From a virus: DNA of 22,284 bases. The notes under the pieces are model-generated. The model ran no database searches, was not told where the DNA came from, and was given only the letters and a program-made list of their open reading frames with translations. How positions within the stretch are numbered: position 1 is the stretch's first letter; every line of letters begins with the position of its first letter. Location of the stretch: positions 1 through 22,284 of IMG/VR virus record IMGVR_UViG_3300020463_002616, one strand, 5' to 3'. This document shows, one piece after another, positions 2-11,602 of the stretch. The translations under genes were made by a program, and so were the position numbers.

Positions 2-82
2 CCTAGTTTTATAGAACACTTTGTGATGCCGGGTAACACAGGCACAACAATAAGTGGAAATATTTATATGGATTTTGCATAA
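2..82 (+). CDS. C-terminal end of a 2OG-Fe(II) oxygenase-like protein (truncated by window edge)
   Basis: An open frame enters from the left edge and stops at the TAA of 80-82, which overlaps the next ATG by one base (TAATG). The 26 visible residues end in a pattern PSFIEH-x-V-x-P followed by TISGNI. This matches the C-terminal strand pair of the oxygenase encoded at 585-1202, which has PSWISHYVLP and then TIAANF. The His would be the distal iron ligand. The Arg that usually binds the 2-oxoglutarate carboxylate a few residues later is not seen here (Thr-Thr instead). The assignment rests on this short similarity and on the neighbouring oxygenases, so it is moderate. Confidence 0.5.
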   Translation, partial: PSFIEHFVMPGNTGTTISGNIYMDFA

Positions 83-585
83 TGAAAAAAACATCAGTAG
101 TAATAGATAACTTTTTACCTAAACCGGATTTAGTAAGAGAGCAAGCAATTAGTTTAGAATATCCTACTACAGGCTCATTTCCCGGAATGAGAAGTCTAGC
201 CTGCGACGATGACTATCAGATGTTTATACATCATAGATTCCAAGAAATATTAGGTGTGAATATAACAGAATTTACTATGGATAGTTTTTGTTTTCAATTA
301 TGTTATGAAGGTGCAGATACTTGGATACACAAAGACGGAGTTGATTGGGCAGGAGTGCTATATCTAAATCCAGATGCTCCTTCAGAAGCTGGTACAGGTC
401 TTTATCTGGAAAAAAACGGAGATTATGATCTGGTCAACGTAATTGGTAATGTGTATAATAGGCTTGTAATTTATGATGGTAACATGGATCACGCAAGTTT
501 AATTGCTGGATTTGGTGATTCTCCAGAAAATGGCAGACTGACACAAGTATTCTTCTTTAACGCACAACCTGAGGCTTGGGAATAA
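82..585 (+). CDS. 2OG-Fe(II) oxygenase-like protein (167 aa)
   Basis: Probable iron- and 2-oxoglutarate-dependent dioxygenase, a family that hydroxylates proteins or small molecules. The core shows the HxD iron motif at H83-K84-D85 inside a WIHKDG segment, a strand pair GVLYLNP, a distal His at H137 (NMDHAS) and an Arg at R152 (GRLTQVFFFN) in the position expected to bind 2-oxoglutarate. This arrangement resembles the small DUF6445-type oxygenases, a recollection I could not check. It is the first complete gene of a co-directional block; ATG overlaps the upstream stop and its own stop overlaps the next start (TAATG). No clear Shine-Dalgarno is visible, consistent with translational coupling. 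Substrate unknown. Confidence 0.72.
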   Translation: MKKTSVVIDNFLPKPDLVREQAISLEYPTTGSFPGMRSLACDDDYQMFIHHRFQEILGVNITEFTMDSFCFQLCYEGADTWIHKDGVDWAGVLYLNPDAPSEAGTGLYLEKNGDYDLVNVIGNVYNRLVIYDGNMDHASLIAGFGDSPENGRLTQVFFFNAQPEAWE

Positions 586-1202
586 TGCGTGTTGATTTGT
601 GGGACACACATTTTTATATAGGAAAAATGGCTGAAGCTGACGACATACTAAAAGAATGGGATCCTTATCTGCAAGATGATAGTTATATTAGTGACAGCAT
701 GTGGACTATGGCTGAAACTAAAAGTAGTATTAGAAACGAAAAAAACAAAGAGTTGCCTTGGAACATATTTTTTGAGTCAGTTCGTCCTCATATGAATACA
801 TTTTTAGAGAGTTTAGATCCACAAGTTGCTTACAATGTATACTGTGACGAAATGTGGTTTAACAAATATGAAAAAGGTGATTATCAAGAACCGCATGATC
901 ATGCTTTTCCAGGACGCGGAGTAAGTGTAATTTATTTTTTAGATTTTCCAGATCAAGAAAAAGATCCCGGAGGCACGCTTGTATTTGAATGTCCGAATTT
1001 TCAAATGATTAGAGCTACTGGTATGGATAGAATATTTAACGATTATAATTATCAACATATTACACCACCTCTAAAAAAAGGCAGTCTAATTATTTTTCCT
1101 AGCTGGATATCTCATTATGTGTTACCTAACAAGACAGATAAGAGAAGAGCAACAATAGCCGCAAATTTTGTGATCACGGCTGCTGATAAAAAAGATGAAT
1201 GA
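585..1202 (+). CDS. 2OG-Fe(II) oxygenase-like protein, HxH variant (205 aa)
   Basis: Putative 2-oxoglutarate/Fe(II) oxygenase of the type annotated as 2OG-FeII_Oxy_5 (TIGR02466). Visible motifs: a jelly-roll core with EPHDHAF (H104, D105, H106), then a VSVIYFLDFP strand, a distal His at H177 (PSWISHYV) and Arg187/188 before TIAANF. In this subfamily the usual HxD is often written H-x-H, as here. I chose the ATG at 585 rather than an in-frame TTG at 576, because 585 makes the common TAATG overlap with the upstream stop. The 3' end overlaps the next gene by 8 bp. Substrate is not deducible; a protein target or a sugar intermediate are both possible. Confidence 0.7.
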   Translation: MRVDLWDTHFYIGKMAEADDILKEWDPYLQDDSYISDSMWTMAETKSSIRNEKNKELPWNIFFESVRPHMNTFLESLDPQVAYNVYCDEMWFNKYEKGDYQEPHDHAFPGRGVSVIYFLDFPDQEKDPGGTLVFECPNFQMIRATGMDRIFNDYNYQHITPPLKKGSLIIFPSWISHYVLPNKTDKRRATIAANFVITAADKKDE

Positions 1203-1743
1203 CACTTTATACATTGGAAATAACAATCAGTGGTTAATAGAAACATACGTGCCTATGTGGCAAGAATATGAACATCTATTTGAAAGCAACCATCCCAACC
1301 TAGTAGAACCAGGAAAAAGTACTACAGTCAATGGCTATCAAATACCACACACATTGCAAGAAACAAAAGATGTAGCTGATTTTATCATAGATAAAACAAA
1401 CAGTATACTCCTAGAAGGAGAAGTTTCATGTAATATACATGATCACATTCAGACCTGGAGTATAAGGTACTATCCAGGAGGTTGGAAAGGCCTACACAAT
1501 CATACAAAAGGACGTACAGGTTGCACAGCAGTTTTATATTTTGATGATATAGAAAAGCAACCAAACGATGAAGGTGCGTTTTACGCTATAATACAAGATG
1601 AAAAAGGTGATACACATGTAAATTGGTGGCAACCAAAAAAAGGATTGTTACTTATTATGGATGCTCGTATATGGCACGGTGTTTATCCTACAGTTGACGA
1701 ACGTAAAGTAATGGTGTTTGATTTTGAGGCAACACATGGGTAG
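1195..1743 (+). CDS. 2OG-Fe(II) oxygenase-like protein, HNH-type metal motif (182 aa)
   Basis: Third consecutive oxygenase-like gene. Near residue 92 the sequence reads YYPGGWKGLHNH, followed by TAVLYFDD, then a late segment ARIWHGVYP with H161 and R170 ahead of KVMVFDF. This is the spacing of a double-stranded beta-helix oxygenase with metal ligands H101/H103 and H161 and 2-oxoglutarate Arg170. H101-x-H103 replaces the classical HxD, as in the preceding gene, so the two may be diverged relatives of one subfamily. The ATG overlaps the previous gene by 8 bp and the end overlaps the next start by 8 bp. Activity is inferred, and a non-catalytic cupin-like role is possible. Confidence 0.62.
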   Translation: MNDTLYIGNNNQWLIETYVPMWQEYEHLFESNHPNLVEPGKSTTVNGYQIPHTLQETKDVADFIIDKTNSILLEGEVSCNIHDHIQTWSIRYYPGGWKGLHNHTKGRTGCTAVLYFDDIEKQPNDEGAFYAIIQDEKGDTHVNWWQPKKGLLLIMDARIWHGVYPTVDERKVMVFDFEATHG

Positions 1744-2542
1744 AACACTTTTTGTAGGTTGTAGTCATACAATGGGCTACAGAGAAGATGCTCCAACAGA
1801 TGAACCCAATGTATGGCGTGACAATAATTACGCAGAAATATACAGCCAAATTTTTGATAAAAAGGTTGTTATTATGGCAAGTGCAGGAGCAGGAAATAGA
1901 GCATATCATAGGTTTATATCCTATGCTTTTGAAAAATATAACGATATAGATGAAGTTTTTGTTCAAAGCACTTATTGGGGTAGATTTCCCATAGCAATTA
2001 ATCCTGACTTAGACGAACAAAATATATTTAACAAAGATTTTTTTATAGATAAAAACGTCTGTGATGATCTTGTTGATAGATATAGTATTGCTCTTTCGCC
2101 AAATAATAAATATTTAGAAACTTATTTAAAACCTTGGTCCAGCGATTATGATAATTTTCCTTACATGAAAGATACAAAGGTTTGGGAATCAGAACCAGAT
2201 ATAAGAAGAACTTCTCATGTTTATATGCAAATGTGGCATTACAGTAATACACATTTAGTGCAAGAAGATTATTTTACATATATGGCAATGTGTAACATGT
2301 TATGCGAAAAAAATAATGCAGAAATGTATCTTTGGAATATAAATGACAGATGCTATATACCTAAAGAAACAAAAAATTATTATGTAAAACTAAACAATAC
2401 AAAAATTGCAGATATAGATGCAGAAAATTATTTAAAAAAATATATGGATATTGAAAAAGTAGACGGAGAACACTATTCAACAAGTGTCCATGGTGCTATT
2501 GCAAAGAGATATATACCATATGTAAAGGAGAAAGCATGGTAG
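1736..2542 (+). CDS. SGNH/GDSL hydrolase-like protein (268 aa)
   Basis: Likely SGNH-superfamily enzyme (esterase, acyltransferase or deacetylase). The N-terminus after a short beta strand is LFVGCSHT, giving nucleophile Ser10. A second block ASAGAGN (residues 48-54) supplies oxyanion-hole Gly and Asn54. Near the C-terminus DGEH (D243, H246) fits the catalytic DxxH block. The middle of the protein is rich in Tyr, Trp and Asp and lacks recognisable motifs. ATG at 1736 is preferred over an in-frame TTG at 1718 because homologous SGNH proteins begin at this strand and the resulting 8 bp overlap matches the neighbouring junctions. Lying between oxygenases and a heptose pathway, it might add or remove acyl groups on a sugar; this is inference. 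Confidence 0.68.
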   Translation: MGRTLFVGCSHTMGYREDAPTDEPNVWRDNNYAEIYSQIFDKKVVIMASAGAGNRAYHRFISYAFEKYNDIDEVFVQSTYWGRFPIAINPDLDEQNIFNKDFFIDKNVCDDLVDRYSIALSPNNKYLETYLKPWSSDYDNFPYMKDTKVWESEPDIRRTSHVYMQMWHYSNTHLVQEDYFTYMAMCNMLCEKNNAEMYLWNINDRCYIPKETKNYYVKLNNTKIADIDAENYLKKYMDIEKVDGEHYSTSVHGAIAKRYIPYVKEKAW

Positions 2543-3129
2543 AAAAAACATATGAAGAGTATAGCGGAATCGAAGAATATCATAATGCTTTTGACAAAGA
2601 CTTTTGTGATGAAGTAATTAGACACTTTGAGACACTAGATGACAATCGAGTAATAAATCCTAATAGGCAAGGACATGGATTTGTAACTGATGATCGAATT
2701 GTGTTTGATTGGGCATATACACAAGGTGTATATCATTACGATTTTAAGATTTGCGATTATTTTTATGAAAGATTAAAAGAAATTTACAAAAGCGAATACA
2801 TGCAAAAGTATAGTATACTTCAACATAGTAAACAACACAGTGCTAAAGGTATGAATGTGCAACGTACAAGTCCACATCAAGGATATCATGCCTGGCATGC
2901 AGAAGCCGCATGTAAAAGTAGTGCCTGTAGAGTTGTAAATTATATGGTATATTTGAATGATGTAGAAGAAGGTGGCGAGACAGAATTCCTTTATCAAGGG
3001 AAACGACTTGCTCCTGAACAAGGTAAACTAGTTATTTTTCCTACATCATTTACACATCCGCACAGAGGTAACCCTATTTACAAAGGACAAAAGTACATCA
3101 TCACCGGATGGTACACTTATGACGAATAA
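2536..3129 (+). CDS. Prolyl 4-hydroxylase-type 2OG-Fe(II) oxygenase (197 aa)
   Basis: Resembles the P4H family of 2-oxoglutarate/Fe(II) dioxygenases. The core has WHAE (H121, E123), then VVNYMVYLNDVEEGGETEF, then KLVIFPTSFTH (distal H174) and GQKYIITGW with Lys186 in the position that binds 2-oxoglutarate in P4H enzymes. Glu123 in place of the usual Asp of HxD is a noticeable substitution, although WHxE also occurs in related phage proteins as far as I recall. A good Shine-Dalgarno (AAAGGAG at 2524-2530) precedes the ATG, which overlaps the SGNH gene stop by 7 bp. The 3' end overlaps the GmhB-like gene by 11 bp. The substrate is unknown; phage structural protein is one option. Confidence 0.78.
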   Translation: MVEKTYEEYSGIEEYHNAFDKDFCDEVIRHFETLDDNRVINPNRQGHGFVTDDRIVFDWAYTQGVYHYDFKICDYFYERLKEIYKSEYMQKYSILQHSKQHSAKGMNVQRTSPHQGYHAWHAEAACKSSACRVVNYMVYLNDVEEGGETEFLYQGKRLAPEQGKLVIFPTSFTHPHRGNPIYKGQKYIITGWYTYDE

Positions 3130-3676
3130 GACATTTATTGGATTAGATAGAGATGGTGTAATTAATACTGATCTCGGACAATATTGTACCCATCCTCAAG
3201 ACTTTGAACCTATTCCTGGCAGTTTAGAATCTATTGCCAATCTAAGGCACAAAGGTTATGGCATTGTTATAATAACGAATCAAGGAGGCATAGCCAAAGG
3301 ACAAATGTCCATAGAAGATGTAGAATCTGTAAACAATTATATGCTAGATTTGCTAGGAAAAGCAGGTTGTACAGATATAGACGGAATATATTTCAGTGAA
3401 ACAAGCGAAAAAAACGATCCATACGCAAAACCAAATGCAGGAATGTTTAAAATTGCACAAAAAGAAATTAAAGAACTTAAATGGAATAACGGATTTTACG
3501 TAGGAGATAAAATGACGGATTTGAAAGCGGCAATGAAAGTAAATGCTCGTCCTGTCTTAGTTAGGACCGGATATGGAGAGCAAACAGAACAGGATTTGAA
3601 TAAATATACATATAAAAATATTAAACGACGTACATACGTCTTTGACTCATTGCAAGATTTTGCAGAGAATTTATAG
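3119..3676 (+). CDS. gmhB: D-glycero-D-manno-heptose 1,7-bisphosphate phosphatase-like HAD enzyme
   Basis: HAD-superfamily phosphatase of the GmhB/HisB-N type. It would remove the C7 phosphate from heptose 1,7-bisphosphate, the middle step of ADP-heptose synthesis. Motif I is GLDRDGVIN (D10 nucleophile, D12 acid/base), motif II ITNQGG (T53-N54-Q55), motif III Lys104-Pro105, motif IV VGDKMTD (D130, D134). At 185 aa the length is that of the family. The zinc loop of E. coli GmhB (two Cys/His pairs between motifs II and III) is absent; residues 91-108 contain no Cys. A related histidinol-phosphate phosphatase is an alternative, but hldE and hldD downstream favour the heptose role. Confidence 0.82.
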   Translation: MTNKTFIGLDRDGVINTDLGQYCTHPQDFEPIPGSLESIANLRHKGYGIVIITNQGGIAKGQMSIEDVESVNNYMLDLLGKAGCTDIDGIYFSETSEKNDPYAKPNAGMFKIAQKEIKELKWNNGFYVGDKMTDLKAAMKVNARPVLVRTGYGEQTEQDLNKYTYKNIKRRTYVFDSLQDFAENL

Positions 3677-3685
3677 GAGATAAAA

Positions 3686-4018
3686 ATGCCATTCGCAGTT
3701 AAAAAACCGCACCCAAAGCATTCTAATGTAAAAGTCTGGCACTCGTGGGATCCAGACGGTGATGGTTACGAAGAAATTAGAAAGTTTAAGACTCAGGAAA
3801 GAGCCCAACAGTGGATCAACGAAAACCACCCATCAAAAAATTGTGAAATTGTTGAAATTGCACACGAAATTGGCCAGGATGATGACGAAGTAGAACGTAA
3901 AGATCAACTAGCCGAAGATGCTACAACGCCAAATGGTGTAATGAGTAATCGTGATAGAGATACAGTAAAAGTAGGTAAACTTACAAATTTCACTGTAGAC
4001 GGCGAAATAGAAGACTAA
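3686..4018 (+). CDS. Small acidic hypothetical protein (110 aa)
   Basis: No family recognised. It has a strong Shine-Dalgarno (AGGAGA at 3675-3680) and ATG at 3686, ten bases after the gmhB-like stop, so it is probably co-transcribed. The N-terminal half contains VKVWHSWDPDGDGYEEIRKF and a helix with RAQQWINENHP, which looks like a small alpha/beta domain in which W-x-x-x-x-DGDG could be a surface loop. The C-terminal half is rich in Asp and Glu with few hydrophobics and is probably disordered. Its last bases overlap by 4 bp the 3' end of the convergent parvulin gene. It may be virion or regulatory; nothing decides. Confidence 0.62.
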   Translation: MPFAVKKPHPKHSNVKVWHSWDPDGDGYEEIRKFKTQERAQQWINENHPSKNCEIVEIAHEIGQDDDEVERKDQLAEDATTPNGVMSNRDRDTVKVGKLTNFTVDGEIED

Positions 4019-4359
4019 CCAGTTCTCACTAAAATATGTAAACCGTATGGAGTTTGTATAGGTTCTTCCAATAGTTGATCTTTTGGTGCATTCAATACAC
4101 TGTAGTAAAGTTCTGGTACAACTCCATCCGTAACATCAAACCAACCTAAATCACCATCTCTATACCAACTGTGGGGACAGGCGCTGTGTTCTTTAACAGC
4201 AGTTGCCCAAGAAATACCACCTCTTAAAAGTTCACCTATTATCATTTTAGCGTCATGTACAGCAAAATATAACTGTCTACTGTGGCTTGATTCTATTGCA
4301 TCTTCGTGGCTTATTAATATATGGCTACAACGTACTTTTGGAAACGTGGGTTTAGGCAT
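4015..4359 (-). CDS. Parvulin-type peptidyl-prolyl cis-trans isomerase (114 aa)
   Basis: Stand-alone rotamase of the parvulin/PpiC family, which catalyses cis-trans isomerisation of Xaa-Pro bonds during folding. Motifs: CSHILI near the N-terminus (H13), a catalytic-loop cysteine C61 before a GDLGWFDV segment (69-76), VPELYYSVLNAP, and the final strand PIQTPYGLHILVRTG with H108. These are the family signature, and the length is that of a bare catalytic domain. There is no signal peptide, so it acts in the host cytoplasm. An AAAGGA Shine-Dalgarno lies six bases before the ATG. It is the only minus-strand gene in the left block and converges on the small acidic gene. A late-promoter-like GTAAATA occurs about 35 bases upstream but is weak. 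Confidence 0.88.
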   Translation of the reverse strand: MPKPTFPKVRCSHILISHEDAIESSHSRQLYFAVHDAKMIIGELLRGGISWATAVKEHSACPHSWYRDGDLGWFDVTDGVVPELYYSVLNAPKDQLLEEPIQTPYGLHILVRTG

Positions 4360-4453: not shown

Positions 4454-5707
4454 ATGATAAAAGTATATGGCGACATAATGCTAGACAGGTGGATTGTTGG
4501 TAAAGCAAAGAGAATAAGTCCAGAAGCTCCTGTACCTGTGTTAAAAGAAATAGAACAACAATTTTGTCCTGGCGGAGCAGGCAATCTTGCAGTAAATATT
4601 GCCAATCTTAATGGAGAAATTGGAATATATGGAAGTATCGCATCTGACAAAGAAGGATATCGTGTAATAGAGTGTTTTTCAAACTTTAAAAAGATTAATT
4701 TTAGAGCAAGTGTGGACAGTAAATTAACTACAACCAAGAATAGACTAGTAGGTCAAGGCGGTCAGCACATTTGTAGGTGGGATAGAGAGGAAAAATACAC
4801 CGGTAAAGATGCATTTCATAGATTATTAGAAGAAGTACAAGCGGAAGATATTGTCTGTGTAAGTGATTATGCTAAAGGCACAGTGAGAGAAGGTACAATT
4901 CAAAAATTATTGAAGAGAAACTGCAAAATTTTGGTAGATCCCAAGCAAGATGCTGAATTATACCGCGGTGCATACCTAGTCAAGCCAAATTTCCGTGAAT
5001 TTAAGAACTGGTTTGGAAAATTTAGCAAAGAAAAAGCACAAAAAGCAGTAAAAGACTATAATTGGACCTGGTTAGTGGTTACAGCAGGTGCAAATGGTAT
5101 GCATGTGTTTAATAATAAAGGTGAATACAAGCATTTTCAAGAACCTGCTCAAGAAGTTGCCGATGTTACTGGTGCAGGTGACACTGTGTTGGCTGTTCTA
5201 GCCTATCTTATCGACGAAGGGTATGATGTATTTGATGCATGTGAAAAAGCATGTTATGCCGCCGCTAGAGCAGTAGAACACAGAGGTGTTCATGTAGTAT
5301 CTAAAGAAGATATCCAACGTGAAGTCGTGTTTACAAACGGAGTGTTTGATGTACTACATGCAGGACACTTGAAATTGCTCAAATATGCAAAAGGAAAAGG
5401 AAATAAATTAATTGTTGGTATAAACAGTGACGCAAGTGTACAAAGAATAAAGGGTAATGACCGTCCTATTAATGATATCGGCTCAAGAATAGCACAACTT
5501 GAAGAGTTGCCTTGGGTCGATGAAGTAAAAATATTCTCAGAGGATACTCCATACAAACTTATTCAAGAAATTAAGCCAAATTTAATTGTGAAAGGCGGAG
5601 ATTATCAACCAAAAGATGTAGTAGGTGCTGATATTGCTGAAGTAGATATATTTCCACGTGTAGATAACTTCAGTACAACAAAAATTGTGGAGAAAATTAA
5701 TGAGTAG
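4454..5707 (+). CDS. hldE: Bifunctional heptose 7-phosphate kinase / heptose 1-phosphate adenylyltransferase
   Basis: Full-length two-domain HldE. The N-terminal ribokinase/PfkB domain (about 1-285) has VYGDIMLDRW, SPEAPVPV, the substrate-loop PGGAGN, and the anion-hole/catalytic DVTGAGD (D243 base). It phosphorylates D-glycero-D-manno-heptose 7-phosphate at C1. The C-terminal nucleotidyltransferase domain (about 288-417) has FTNGVFDVLHAGH (HxGH at 301-304), RPIND and VKGGDY (378-383), and transfers AMP to heptose 1-phosphate. The protein is 417 aa against about 477 in E. coli; the missing part is an N-terminal extension and loops, not a motif. ATG 4454 gives the expected start just before the first strand. 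The stop overlaps the cupin start by 8 bp. An upstream sigma70-like box is listed separately. Confidence 0.95.
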   Translation: MIKVYGDIMLDRWIVGKAKRISPEAPVPVLKEIEQQFCPGGAGNLAVNIANLNGEIGIYGSIASDKEGYRVIECFSNFKKINFRASVDSKLTTTKNRLVGQGGQHICRWDREEKYTGKDAFHRLLEEVQAEDIVCVSDYAKGTVREGTIQKLLKRNCKILVDPKQDAELYRGAYLVKPNFREFKNWFGKFSKEKAQKAVKDYNWTWLVVTAGANGMHVFNNKGEYKHFQEPAQEVADVTGAGDTVLAVLAYLIDEGYDVFDACEKACYAAARAVEHRGVHVVSKEDIQREVVFTNGVFDVLHAGHLKLLKYAKGKGNKLIVGINSDASVQRIKGNDRPINDIGSRIAQLEELPWVDEVKIFSEDTPYKLIQEIKPNLIVKGGDYQPKDVVGADIAEVDIFPRVDNFSTTKIVEKINE

Positions 5708-6062
5708 ACACACAGGCAAGGTAGAAAAAGGATGGGGTAGTGAAACTATATTTGCTACAAACGATTTATACTGCGGAAAATTACTAAATTTTAACAAAGG
5801 AGCAAAATTTAGTATGCACATGCATAAAGATAAAGACGAAACTTGGTATGTCTTATCAGGAAAATTTGTTGTGAAAACAATAGATACAACAAATGCTGAT
5901 ATTTTAGCCGATCCACTTGAAGAAGGCGATACCTGGCATAATCCTCCTATGCTTCCACATCAAATTTTATGTCTCGAGGCTGGCTGTATTATTGAAGTAA
6001 GCACTCCTGATAGTATAGAAGACAATTATAGGGTAGATAAAGGAGATAGTCAACAATTATGA
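5700..6062 (+). CDS. Metal-binding cupin, phosphomannose-isomerase-like (120 aa)
   Basis: Single-domain cupin resembling the isomerase-type cupins of the ManC/phosphomannose isomerase group. It opens with KGWGSE, has YCGKLLNF, then cupin motif 1 with metal ligands H40, H42 and E47 (SMHMHKDKDETWYVLSGKF) and motif 2 with PPMLPHQ (H87), a complete four-ligand site. The ATG at 5700 overlaps the hldE stop by 8 bp, and the gene overlaps hldD by 4 bp (ATGA), so it is embedded in the heptose operon. This placement suggests it acts on a pathway sugar. Because GmhA, the ketose-aldose isomerase, is absent from the visible pathway, this protein is a candidate replacement. That role is inference; a 3,4-ketoisomerase or epimerase role is also possible. 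Confidence 0.82.
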   Translation: MSRHTGKVEKGWGSETIFATNDLYCGKLLNFNKGAKFSMHMHKDKDETWYVLSGKFVVKTIDTTNADILADPLEEGDTWHNPPMLPHQILCLEAGCIIEVSTPDSIEDNYRVDKGDSQQL

Positions 6063-9094: not shown

Positions 9095-9359
9095 TACCCA
9101 TTTCTTGAAACTTTTGATATAACTGTTGACGTACTTCTTGTATTTTAAGTCTGGTATCAACTAATCCGTGAGGATTGATATATCCGTTAAAGTCAGAATC
9201 GTGACCAACATCAATTTTTTTTACAAGATCTTTTAATTCTTCCATTAGAACATTAATATCATAAGCATATTGTTCATTTTCTACTTGCTTTAATCCCTTT
9301 GTAAACTTTTTCCACTCGTTAACAAATTTAGGTTCAGTTGATAAATTAAATCTGTCCAT
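9081..9359 (-). CDS. Small hypothetical protein, probably helical (92 aa)
   Basis: No family recognised. The sequence is rich in Lys, Glu, Gln and Leu with long stretches compatible with amphipathic helices (residues 10-48 and 68-90), separated by a loop around DSDFNGYINPHG. It is the last gene of the minus-strand gp14-gp15 operon: its start lies inside the end of the degenerate cupin gene (14 bp overlap), and its end overlaps the convergent virion gene by 14 bp. Its place downstream of neck genes could point to a tail or head accessory role, but nothing in the protein says so. Confidence 0.6.
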   Translation of the reverse strand: MDRFNLSTEPKFVNEWKKFTKGLKQVENEQYAYDINVLMEELKDLVKKIDVGHDSDFNGYINPHGLVDTRLKIQEVRQQLYQKFQEMGIIMR

Positions 9360-9720
9360 CTTCGTCCCACTTATCTGCTGGTATTACATGAAAAATATCA
9401 TACTCGTCGTATCCATTACTAGCTTCTGTAATACTTGAATTATCTATTAATGCTTCTAACTGCACAGGCATTAAAGGAGGTACATTAAATACTTTACCTT
9501 CTTCTAGCTCAGCTTCATACATACGTCCGTCTTTTACATCAATATATCTAAGCCTAAATTTTCCAGCATTACAAAACCAAGTTTTATCTGTATTTTTATG
9601 AAAATACATACTTGTCCTGTTTTTTGCTTTGTTGAATACTAAAATTTTACAAGCATAATCTGCATGATTTGCCCACAACAAATCCATACCATATGCAGTA
9701 TCTACCATAGAGTCGCTCAT
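9346..9720 (-). CDS. Degenerate cupin paralogue (124 aa)
   Basis: Aligns along its length with the heptose-operon cupin at 5700: YACKILVFNK against YCGKLLNFNK, then SMYFHKNTDKTWF against SMHMHKDKDETWY, then a LEEG block and a PPxxPxQ block. In this copy the metal site is mostly lost: His40 is Tyr39, Glu47 is Lys46 and the motif-2 His is Val86; only His41 remains. It is therefore unlikely to be a metalloenzyme and may be a binding or structural protein. The start overlaps the Nudix stop by one base (TAATG) with GGAG six bases upstream. An alternative start is Met5. It ends overlapping the small helical gene. Confidence 0.7.
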   Translation of the reverse strand: MSDSMVDTAYGMDLLWANHADYACKILVFNKAKNRTSMYFHKNTDKTWFCNAGKFRLRYIDVKDGRMYEAELEEGKVFNVPPLMPVQLEALIDNSSITEASNGYDEYDIFHVIPADKWDEDGQI

Positions 9721-10154
9721 TATATCTCCATCAAATCTACAACTTTAAATACTGTTTCTAGTTTGCTTAAATTTACTTTGTTAGTAAGAGTGTTTTTTAG
9801 CCCGTTGTGTAAAGGCTTTGGCCAACAACTAAATGCACACCAAGCGTATCCGTTGTGTTCGCTATTTAATTTAGGCAAAAATTCGTTTTCTACTACACAT
9901 AGATATGTATGGAATTTAAACTTCTGATCATTACTTACAAAAGTTTCTAAAGGTATAGTCTTCTTTATATCAATGTGGCCTATTTCTTCATCGATTTCTC
10001 GCTTCAATCCTTCCCAAGGAGTTTCTGTACCTTCATTGGTACCACCAACAAGACCCCATGTGCGGTTAGTTTTGCCATTTGTTCTATGTAAAAATAAAAA
10101 TCTTTGGGTGTCTAATGTATAGATTATTGCACCACTGCAAACTATTTCTTTCAT
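9720..10154 (-). CDS. Nudix hydrolase (144 aa)
   Basis: Hydrolase of nucleoside diphosphates linked to another moiety. The Nudix box G-x5-E-x7-REIDEEIGHI is complete at residues 38-61 (G38, E44, R52, E53, E56, E57). The domain begins at once with EIVCSGAIIY and includes TWGLVGGT before the box. I place the start at 10154 because it opens the domain and lies eight bases after the gp15 stop. An in-frame ATG at 10187 would add 11 residues and overlap gp15 by 25 bp; its upstream AGAGG is only three bases away. Third gene of the minus-strand operon. Substrate unknown: nucleotide-sugars, ADP-heptose included, dNTPs, NAD or capped RNA are all possible. Confidence 0.85.
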   Translation of the reverse strand: MKEIVCSGAIIYTLDTQRFLFLHRTNGKTNRTWGLVGGTNEGTETPWEGLKREIDEEIGHIDIKKTIPLETFVSNDQKFKFHTYLCVVENEFLPKLNSEHNGYAWCAFSCWPKPLHNGLKNTLTNKVNLSKLETVFKVVDLMEI

Positions 10155-10162
10155 ACAAATAG

Positions 10163-11602
10163 TTAGCCTTCTAGTGCAAGCCTCCATGTACCTCTTGGAT
10201 ACAAGCCGTCAACACTTTTAAGCCAATCATTTCCGTCCCAACGATATTGTACATTTGTTGTAAGATTTGTTATGTAGGTTATTGTTGCTGTTTCAGACGC
10301 ATCAAACACTATTTGCCATTTTGATCCAGTCCATTCAATTATATCATTTGCAGACGCAATTAAATCTTCACCATTTGTTGCTTTCCAAGCATCTGGACCA
10401 TCTGTATTATTTGCATTTCCTATGTCAGCAAGTAAAAGCATTCTTACACCAGTGGCTTTAATTTCAGATGGGTTAAACGTAGTAGGATCTATAATAAAAT
10501 CTATAGAGGTAAAACTATTTGTATCTCTTGCTGGGCCATTTATTACAGAATTACTCGGAAAACTATCAGTATCCCAATTTACAATTAATTGTCTTGGATT
10601 AAGTTCGTTAATAGCAATACTACCAGTTATAGTTGAATCAGTATCTAATTTTGTAAAATGTATGCGACTTATATCTGCTTGATATTGACCTGGTAGAGCT
10701 TCTAAAAGTTGATCCCATAAAGCATTTCCAACTGTTCCTCTATGCACAAGCTGAACAACGTTACCATCTACATACGCACCGTAATTTTTATGTGTAGTTG
10801 TGACTACAGTGTCTTCAACATCTGTGTTTATATCTCTATCAGTATCATTGCCTTCACTTACTGTACCTACTTTGATAGCATCATCAAATCTATTAAGATC
10901 AGGACCGCTTAACCCTAATTCTATATCACCTTTTGATTCATCAAAAATACTTGTAATTATGTTTGCAATTACTCCTAGTCTTTTTACTTTTACTGGTGGT
11001 GAAATGTATATAGGAGTAGTAAATGTCATGTCTGCTATATCTATTTCACTATCCACGCCTACTGGAATAGAACGTGAACTAAATGTCACTGAATCTAAAT
11101 TTACTACACTCAAACTTGTCCAATCAATGTAGTTATCCGTTGTTTGTATTTCTAAACTTGGATTAAAAAGAGTAAGAATTTGTTCAAGAATTTGTAGTTT
11201 TTGTTCTGTATTTGTACTCCAAATATCTACTTTCATTGTAAGATTATAAGGTGTAGGCATTAAACGTTCGACTGTGTAATTTTTACCTTGAAAATTTAAA
11301 TATTCTCCACCATCTTTATCATAAGCACGTTCACGTATATTCAGTTTATTAACATAGCTACTATCACTTGTTCGTGTTCTATCCATTTCAAGTCCTGTGA
11401 CATACACAGCCATACGTGGTGCACTTGGTATTTTGTTTTCTGAATTGTCCCGTATAATACTTGATACTTGACGTGTTAGATCACCATACATAACAGGTAC
11501 TTGCACTAGTTTACCTTTGCCATCTTTATAACTAAAATTACTCATCAGGCGTATCATCTGTGTGATATATCGTCTTATTTGTCCGTCATAAAAGTGTTGC
11601 AT
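10163..11602 (-). CDS. gp15: Tail sheath stabiliser / proximal tail protein gp15 homologue (479 aa)
   Basis: Homologue of T4 gp15, which caps the contractile sheath and tube and links the tail to the neck. The N-terminal part shows the T4 landmarks in order: FYDGQIRRYITQM (4-16; T4 has FYNSSFRRYATLM), VQVPVMYGD (33-41), MPTPYNLTMKVDIW (115-128) and QILEQILTLFNPS (137-149). T4 gp15 is about 272 aa; here an additional roughly 200-residue C-terminal part follows, with aromatic modules EWTGSKW and YRWDGNDW between 423 and 460. Start ATG overlaps the gp14 stop by one base (TAATG), as expected for gp14-gp15 coupling. The gene is on the strand opposite gp13. Confidence 0.85.
   Translation of the reverse strand: MQHFYDGQIRRYITQMIRLMSNFSYKDGKGKLVQVPVMYGDLTRQVSSIIRDNSENKIPSAPRMAVYVTGLEMDRTRTSDSSYVNKLNIRERAYDKDGGEYLNFQGKNYTVERLMPTPYNLTMKVDIWSTNTEQKLQILEQILTLFNPSLEIQTTDNYIDWTSLSVVNLDSVTFSSRSIPVGVDSEIDIADMTFTTPIYISPPVKVKRLGVIANIITSIFDESKGDIELGLSGPDLNRFDDAIKVGTVSEGNDTDRDINTDVEDTVVTTTHKNYGAYVDGNVVQLVHRGTVGNALWDQLLEALPGQYQADISRIHFTKLDTDSTITGSIAINELNPRQLIVNWDTDSFPSNSVINGPARDTNSFTSIDFIIDPTTFNPSEIKATGVRMLLLADIGNANNTDGPDAWKATNGEDLIASANDIIEWTGSKWQIVFDASETATITYITNLTTNVQYRWDGNDWLKSVDGLYPRGTWRLALEG

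Follow-up and report, generated by a model that had tools for sequence, protein, structure and literature searches.

A cupin protein proposed to replace GmhA in heptose gene clusters of phages and archaea

We analyzed a complete viral record of 22,284 bases, IMGVR_UViG_3300020463_002616 (the whole stretch is referred to hereafter as the window), in which the gene for a small cupin protein lies among heptose genes. Computation placed this gene in an operon of the heptose pathway and revealed that the active-site residues of its product are invariant among heptose-linked relatives, that HldA in one phylum of archaea is accompanied by the cupin or by GmhA but in no genome by both, that the two share an operon slot and a fusion position, and that one has been switched for the other repeatedly. 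From these observations, we infer that the cupin is very probably a metal-dependent sedoheptulose 7-phosphate isomerase that replaces GmhA, because the archaeal cupin repeatedly takes the place of GmhA in otherwise identical gene sets. Non-orthologous replacement of GmhA was the original prediction made from the letters of the window, and the viral gene context, the mutual exclusion in archaea and the shared slot and fusion position now support it.

The cupin gene within the heptose cluster

The features of the window that concern the argument are the following.

3119..3676, plus strand: GmhB-like HAD phosphatase (heptose 1,7-bisphosphate 7-phosphatase), by NCBIfam NF006506 (137 bits; cut-off, 178) and Pfam HAD families
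4454..5707, plus strand: HldE, heptose 7-phosphate kinase and heptose 1-phosphate adenylyltransferase; best matches, PRK11316, TIGR02198 and TIGR02199
5700..6062, plus strand: cupin, the proposed metal-dependent sedoheptulose 7-phosphate isomerase in place of GmhA, by Pfam Cupin_2 and MannoseP_isomer, gene context, exclusion, slot-sharing, fusions and lyxose-isomerase residues
6059..6871, plus strand: HldD-like ADP-heptose 6-epimerase, by TIGR02197 (225 bits; cut-off, 274.6)
9346..9720, minus strand: second, paralogous cupin with a broken metal site, not the proposed enzyme, by PHROG 7851 (61.8 bits)

The cupin gene had been described as wedged between hldE and hldD with overlapping ends, and the coordinates confirm both overlaps: the reading frame opens with ATG at 5700, ahead of the end of hldE (stop codon TAG, 5705-5707), and closes with TGA at 6060-6062, overlapping the hldD ATG at 6059. 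The identification of the neighbors as gmhB-like, hldE and hldD stands in part. Heptose-pathway NCBIfam models rank best for all three products, but every score lies under the curated equivalog cut-off; HldE, in which both the kinase and the adenylyltransferase domains are present, reached 360 bits against 521 with PRK11316, 241 against 345 with TIGR02198 and 156 against 181.5 with TIGR02199. A profile search detected no SIS_2 domain in the 22,284-base record, which is a viral fragment and not a complete genome. Its tail sheath is closest to those of jumbo phages (for example, Agrobacterium phage Atu_ph07, 41%), so the window is a fragment of a probably much larger genome.

Several genes upstream of the heptose genes (82-3129) read as oxygenase-like from the sequence, one of which, at 576-1202, was confirmed by Pfam as a 2OG-Fe(II) oxygenase. 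A parvulin-type PPIase gene (4015-4359, minus strand) lies on the opposite strand within the heptose cluster.

Fold and active site of the cupin

The cupin has 120 amino acids and carries the two-motif metal site (H-x-H...E...H) and the double-stranded beta-barrel that define the cupin superfamily. It exceeded the Pfam cut-offs of Cupin_2 (32.4 bits), Cupin_1 (27.2 bits) and MannoseP_isomer; the last of these (PF01050, mannose-6-phosphate isomerase C-terminal; 25.9 against 23.6 bits) bears out the phosphomannose-isomerase-like features ascribed to the protein earlier. The cut-offs for D-lyxose isomerase (PF07385; 12.0 against 20.8 bits) and for WbuC cupins (TIGR04366; 20.7 against 42 bits) were not reached. 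Only cupin families of Pfam and NCBIfam matched, with no SIS domain, and an AlphaFold2 model (pLDDT 94.7) predicts an all-beta protein of the cupin fold.

We then compared the protein with characterized cupins. The lowest E-values in a PDB profile search belonged to quercetinase and oxalate decarboxylase, which matched in the core only. Nearly full-length matches, obtained with query profile A3, were to the D-lyxose isomerases 2y0o (E 1e-9) and 7nzo (TsLI; E 1.6e-6), and a cupin phosphoglucose isomerase matched the cupin profile at E 0.008. Fold searching with the model returned an archaeal phosphomannose isomerase (7zvm; Z 14.7, 12% identity) and D-lyxose isomerase (Z 14.0). The scores of CapF, KdgF and quercetinase equaled or exceeded those of the isomerases, and fold searching cannot discriminate between cupin functions. 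The profile of PHROG 7851, labelled 'cysteine dioxygenase', matches the cupin at 132 bits.

According to the excerpts of its published description, TsLI contacts its sugar through K62, H75, H77, K86, E88, H143, E156 and D163, and activity is abolished when the equivalents of K86, E156 or D163 are changed (PMC8378251). Transferring these positions through the alignment with 2y0o, whose numbering was taken as six lower than that of TsLI, we found that K62, H75, H77, K86, E88, H143 and E156 correspond to K27, H40, H42, K45, E47, H87 and E99 of the cupin. All of these residues, including the four ligands H40, H42, E47 and H87 at the very positions claimed beforehand, are invariant in a 68-row alignment, as well as in all 18 archaeal HldA-linked cupins. 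D108 is conserved, and its tentative pairing with TsLI D163 needs a two-residue shift and falls outside the HMMER alignment. Among the 193 viral rows above 100 bits, H40, H42 and E47 were each lost in one. An archaea-weighted profile, meant for residue alignment with 7nzo, returned quercetinases only.

The D-lyxose/D-mannose isomerases (2y0o and 7nzo; excerpts of PMC8378251) share with the cupin the fold, the metal site, residues of the K27/K45/E99 type and a profile match over nearly the full length. They differ in size (about 175-200 amino acids, against about 120), the cupin lies below the family cut-off, and they act on free sugar, whereas the context of the cupin is a phosphorylated heptose. 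The archaeal phosphomannose isomerase 7zvm and the phosphoglucose isomerase 1j3p are cupin isomerases of phosphosugars, with low sequence identity to the cupin. In position the cupin resembles GmhA, in active site D-lyxose/D-mannose isomerase; it is no member of the GmhA family.

With HldE, GmhB and HldD, the cupin would complete a cassette that draws on the pentose phosphate pathway to make ADP-heptose. If the mechanism parallels that of D-lyxose/D-mannose isomerase, a metal held by H40, H42, E47 and H87 would polarize the sugar, E47 and K45 may help to form and stabilize a cis-enediol, and the substrate would be held by K27, E99 and probably D108. The configuration at C2-C4 is identical in D-lyxose, D-mannose and D-glycero-D-manno-heptose, so that the same chemistry would serve the heptose.

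Divergent copies of the cupin were also encountered. The second cupin of the window, in which H40 is replaced by Y, E47 by K and H87 by V, adjoins a Nudix gene (9720-10187, minus strand), and this pair of broken cupin and Nudix recurs in relatives (for example, L017, L019, L116, L117, L120 and L123). A 280-kb viral contig (L054:7614-8357) has a tandem cupin pair, one member of which is without the HxH and the Glu. In Lachnospiraceae and an archaeon (L105-L115 and L238), divergent cupins form the C-terminus of long proteins; those of L105 and L238 we take by their motifs to be NeuB-like. The lyxose-isomerase residue set is kept in those of L105-L115 that were aligned.

Viral and cellular relatives

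The cupin was found by tblastn in 36 of 50,697 phage records (35 cyanophages or marine single-cell viruses and 1 bacterial contig), 31 of which also contain HldC. In the 11 phage regions that we read, the cupin is accompanied by homologues of HldC, HldA and HldD and often by a small protein labelled 'phosphoheptose isomerase'. We rejected this protein as a cyanophage gmhA beside the cupin: the copy of L011 (L011:6652-6996; PHROG 1238) is a 114-amino-acid HAD protein, whose best NCBIfam match is EcbF-BcbF capsule phosphatase (35 bits) and which hhalign assigns at 68% to GmhB against 0.3% to GmhA. The copies read are 102-116 amino acids long and show the HAD motif pattern DxDxT...T...K...DD. Judged by sequence, the label 'phosphoheptose isomerase' of PHROG 1238, a family that fits HAD phosphatases, looks wrong, as does the label 'cysteine dioxygenase' of PHROG 7851, which contains the window cupin; PHROG 14703, labelled 'unknown', looks like the true SIS GmhA family.

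The cupin of Bellamy and that of SynMITS9220M01 are each flanked by genes of the GDP-heptose branch, an HddA-like kinase (278.8 bits in Bellamy) on one side and an HddC-like transferase on the other, which suggests that the cupin goes with the step common to the ADP- and GDP-heptose branches. The SIS_2 profile gave a single, weak match among 11 complete cyanophage genomes; this SIS GmhA, in SynMITS9220M01, is separated from the cupin by about 6 kb and accompanied by a second HddA-like kinase. Caulobacter phage Cr30 has GmhA beside an HddA-like kinase and has no cupin.

To survey a larger viral sample, we combined two scans of IMG/VR (47 loci and the best 80 of 591 relatives, 2 of them shared) into 125 loci. 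Within 4 kb of the cupin, HldC was present in 105, HldA in 98 and HldD in 78 of these, at least one of the three in 113, and an SIS protein in none. Whole contigs with relatives likewise yielded no SIS-type GmhA, either with SIS_2 (0 of 47) or with TIGR00441 (0 of 23, including contigs of 355, 328, 327, 320 and 296 kb). Since most of these loci had been picked by the cupin, we picked 80 further loci by HldC alone (the best 80 of 202), among which 66 had the cupin, none GmhA and 14 neither. Less than 3 kb is available on one side of HldC in 13 of these 14; the exception (L305) is a 296-kb phage contig with HldA and HldC and neither cupin nor GmhA anywhere. The GmhA profile matched at more than 100 bits all 12 loci (L196-L207) that had not been used in building it; at two further SIS_2 loci, it matched L195 weakly and missed L194. 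A scan of viral contigs for the HldE kinase returned only 3 loci.

Searching genome contigs with the window cupin alone as the query found no relatives; query A2 found 53 loci, 41 of which scored above 100 bits with the cupin profile. HldA or HldC is in the locus for 26 of these 41 close cellular homologues. Counter to the possibility, raised with the original prediction, that homologues would mostly lack hldE/hldD, heptose partners accompany the cupin both here and in the 113 of 125 viral loci. The 15 homologues with neither gene in the locus include Marinoscillum (L066) and Planctomycetota and have unchanged key residues; as the same residue set occurs outside heptose operons, members of the cupin family may differ in function.

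Ten loci, nine from archaea by title and one (L080) titled Nomurabacteria, have an archaeal-type operon of cupin, HldD, HldA, GmhB and HldC, with no GmhB match at L084. At L089, HldA (380.9 bits; cut-off, 345) and HldC (182.1 bits; cut-off, 181.5) pass the curated cut-offs, and HldD (265.6 bits; cut-off, 274.6) falls just under. In seven of the ten genomes, SIS_2 matched only frames of 324-760 amino acids, too long for GmhA. The other three have a GmhA-sized SIS_2 frame, which in two (L204 and L207) sits with an HddA-like kinase and a gene that we take to be transaldolase-like.

Exchange of the cupin and GmhA in DPANN-type archaea

We examined 371 genomes from the phylum of DPANN-type archaea to which the genome of L085 belongs, at thresholds of our own choosing (HldA, E<=1e-40; cupin, E<=1e-25; GmhA, E<=1e-8; adjacency, less than 5 kb). 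HldA was present in 87, the cupin in 31 and GmhA in 96. Anywhere in the 87 HldA genomes, the cupin occurred in 26, GmhA in 50 and both in 7; 3 of these 7 have the cupin beside HldA. Beside HldA itself, we found the cupin in 18, GmhA in 37, neither in 32 and both in none, and an adjacency limit of 3 kb gave identical counts. Two-sided Fisher tests gave 1.8e-5 for adjacency and 2.9e-4 at the genome level, values that overstate the exclusion because the genomes are related and shared ancestry is ignored. A single class of 188 genomes, examined earlier (HldA, E<=1e-20; cupin, E<=1e-12) and with members in the phylum sample, had given weak evidence alone (adjacency, p 0.14; genome level, p 0.12).

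Gene order was then compared over all 55 regions in which the cupin or GmhA lies beside HldA. The order was cupin-HldD-HldA-GmhB-HldC in 6, gmhA-HldD-HldA-GmhB(-HldC) in another 6 and other or partial in 43; GmhB and HldC are often one protein in these operons. HldA carries a C-terminal cupin in 6 genomes and a C-terminal GmhA in 4, and further fusions join GmhB-cupin-HldC in 1 genome and cupin-HldD in 1. An HldA tree, built by a quick method with no bootstrap from 54 of the 55 domains (one, below 100 bits, was left out), requires no fewer than 8 switches from cupin to GmhA or the reverse, 4 of them forced by well supported branches. The same slot, the same fusion position and the changes on the tree together indicate that the swap happened in place, repeatedly. 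GmhA (SIS fold, TIGR00441) is like the cupin in operon slot, in having HldA as a fusion partner and in the proposed reaction, but its fold is unrelated, and the SIS domain is its alone. At L402, HldA has as its neighbor a GmhA-HldC fusion of 355 amino acids, and HddA and another GmhA lie upstream.

These distributions bear on what else the cupin might do. It could be another enzyme of the heptose cassette, such as a heptose-phosphate mutarotase or anomerase or a sugar-tailoring isomerase, with the host GmhA supplying the isomerase. Phages often depend on host enzymes, cupins catalyze many reactions, and SynMITS9220M01 has both the cupin and a weak SIS GmhA. An enzyme for an extra step should, however, co-occur with GmhA, whereas both stand beside HldA in 0 of 87 genomes, against 18 for the cupin and 37 for GmhA, and the two share both operon slot and fusion position; we consider this explanation unlikely.

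It seems quite improbable that another phosphosugar is the substrate, with the cupin acting as an isomerase of phosphomannose-isomerase-like or lyxose/mannose type in a cassette that makes a different NDP-sugar. The MannoseP_isomer match, the similarity to 7zvm and the scores of phage HldE, HldD and GmhB under the curated cut-offs would agree with such a role, but HldA and HldC of L089 pass theirs, with HldD nearly doing so, and in sister operons the slot of the cupin is occupied by GmhA. A role as cysteine dioxygenase or as some other oxygenase of small molecules, which the PHROG 7851 label and the 2OG-Fe(II) oxygenase gene upstream might suggest, is made very improbable by the retention of the sugar-isomerase residues K27/K45/E47/E99 and by the fusion of the cupin to heptose enzymes. 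Finally, that the cupin serves HldE as a regulator or a non-catalytic subunit, as the HldA fusions and the broken paralogue of the window might bring to mind, is scarcely conceivable, since the metal ligands and catalytic positions, needless for a structural subunit, are invariant in the heptose-context copies.

Cyanophage sugar-cluster 'cupin fold sugar isomerases', the same kind of gene, have been named as possible sugar isomerases (PMC7824862); the excerpts of that paper give no substrate or link to GmhA, and the words heptose and ADP-heptose are absent from its main text. Among the matches listed from the open-access literature, to which the search was confined, we found by title or opening of the abstract no proposal that a cupin replaces GmhA or isomerizes sedoheptulose 7-phosphate, and the excerpts of PMC2876114, on the topic of cupin, sedoheptulose and isomerase, do not name the case. 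The same literature yielded nothing on ADP-heptose in DPANN archaea or on phage hldE with a cupin, and for phage-encoded ADP-heptose genes the matches listed included, by title, no phage paper.

More broadly, it is likely that sedoheptulose 7-phosphate is isomerized by two unrelated kinds of enzyme, of which the cross-domain cupin family is the second. Such a family would have displaced GmhA on several occasions in DPANN-type archaea, taking over its operon slot and fusion position, and in phages would serve both the ADP- and the GDP-heptose branches; it would also have given rise to broken phage paralogues and NeuB-fused relatives, pointing to a wider class of cupin isomerases that feed activated-sugar pathways. 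GmhA is pursued as an antibacterial target, according to the excerpts of PMC11056994, which makes a second, unrelated enzyme for its reaction worth knowing. If our proposal is true, public labels that point at the wrong gene would be corrected, GmhA would gain a non-homologous counterpart, and the missing first step of heptose activation would be filled in many phages and archaea.
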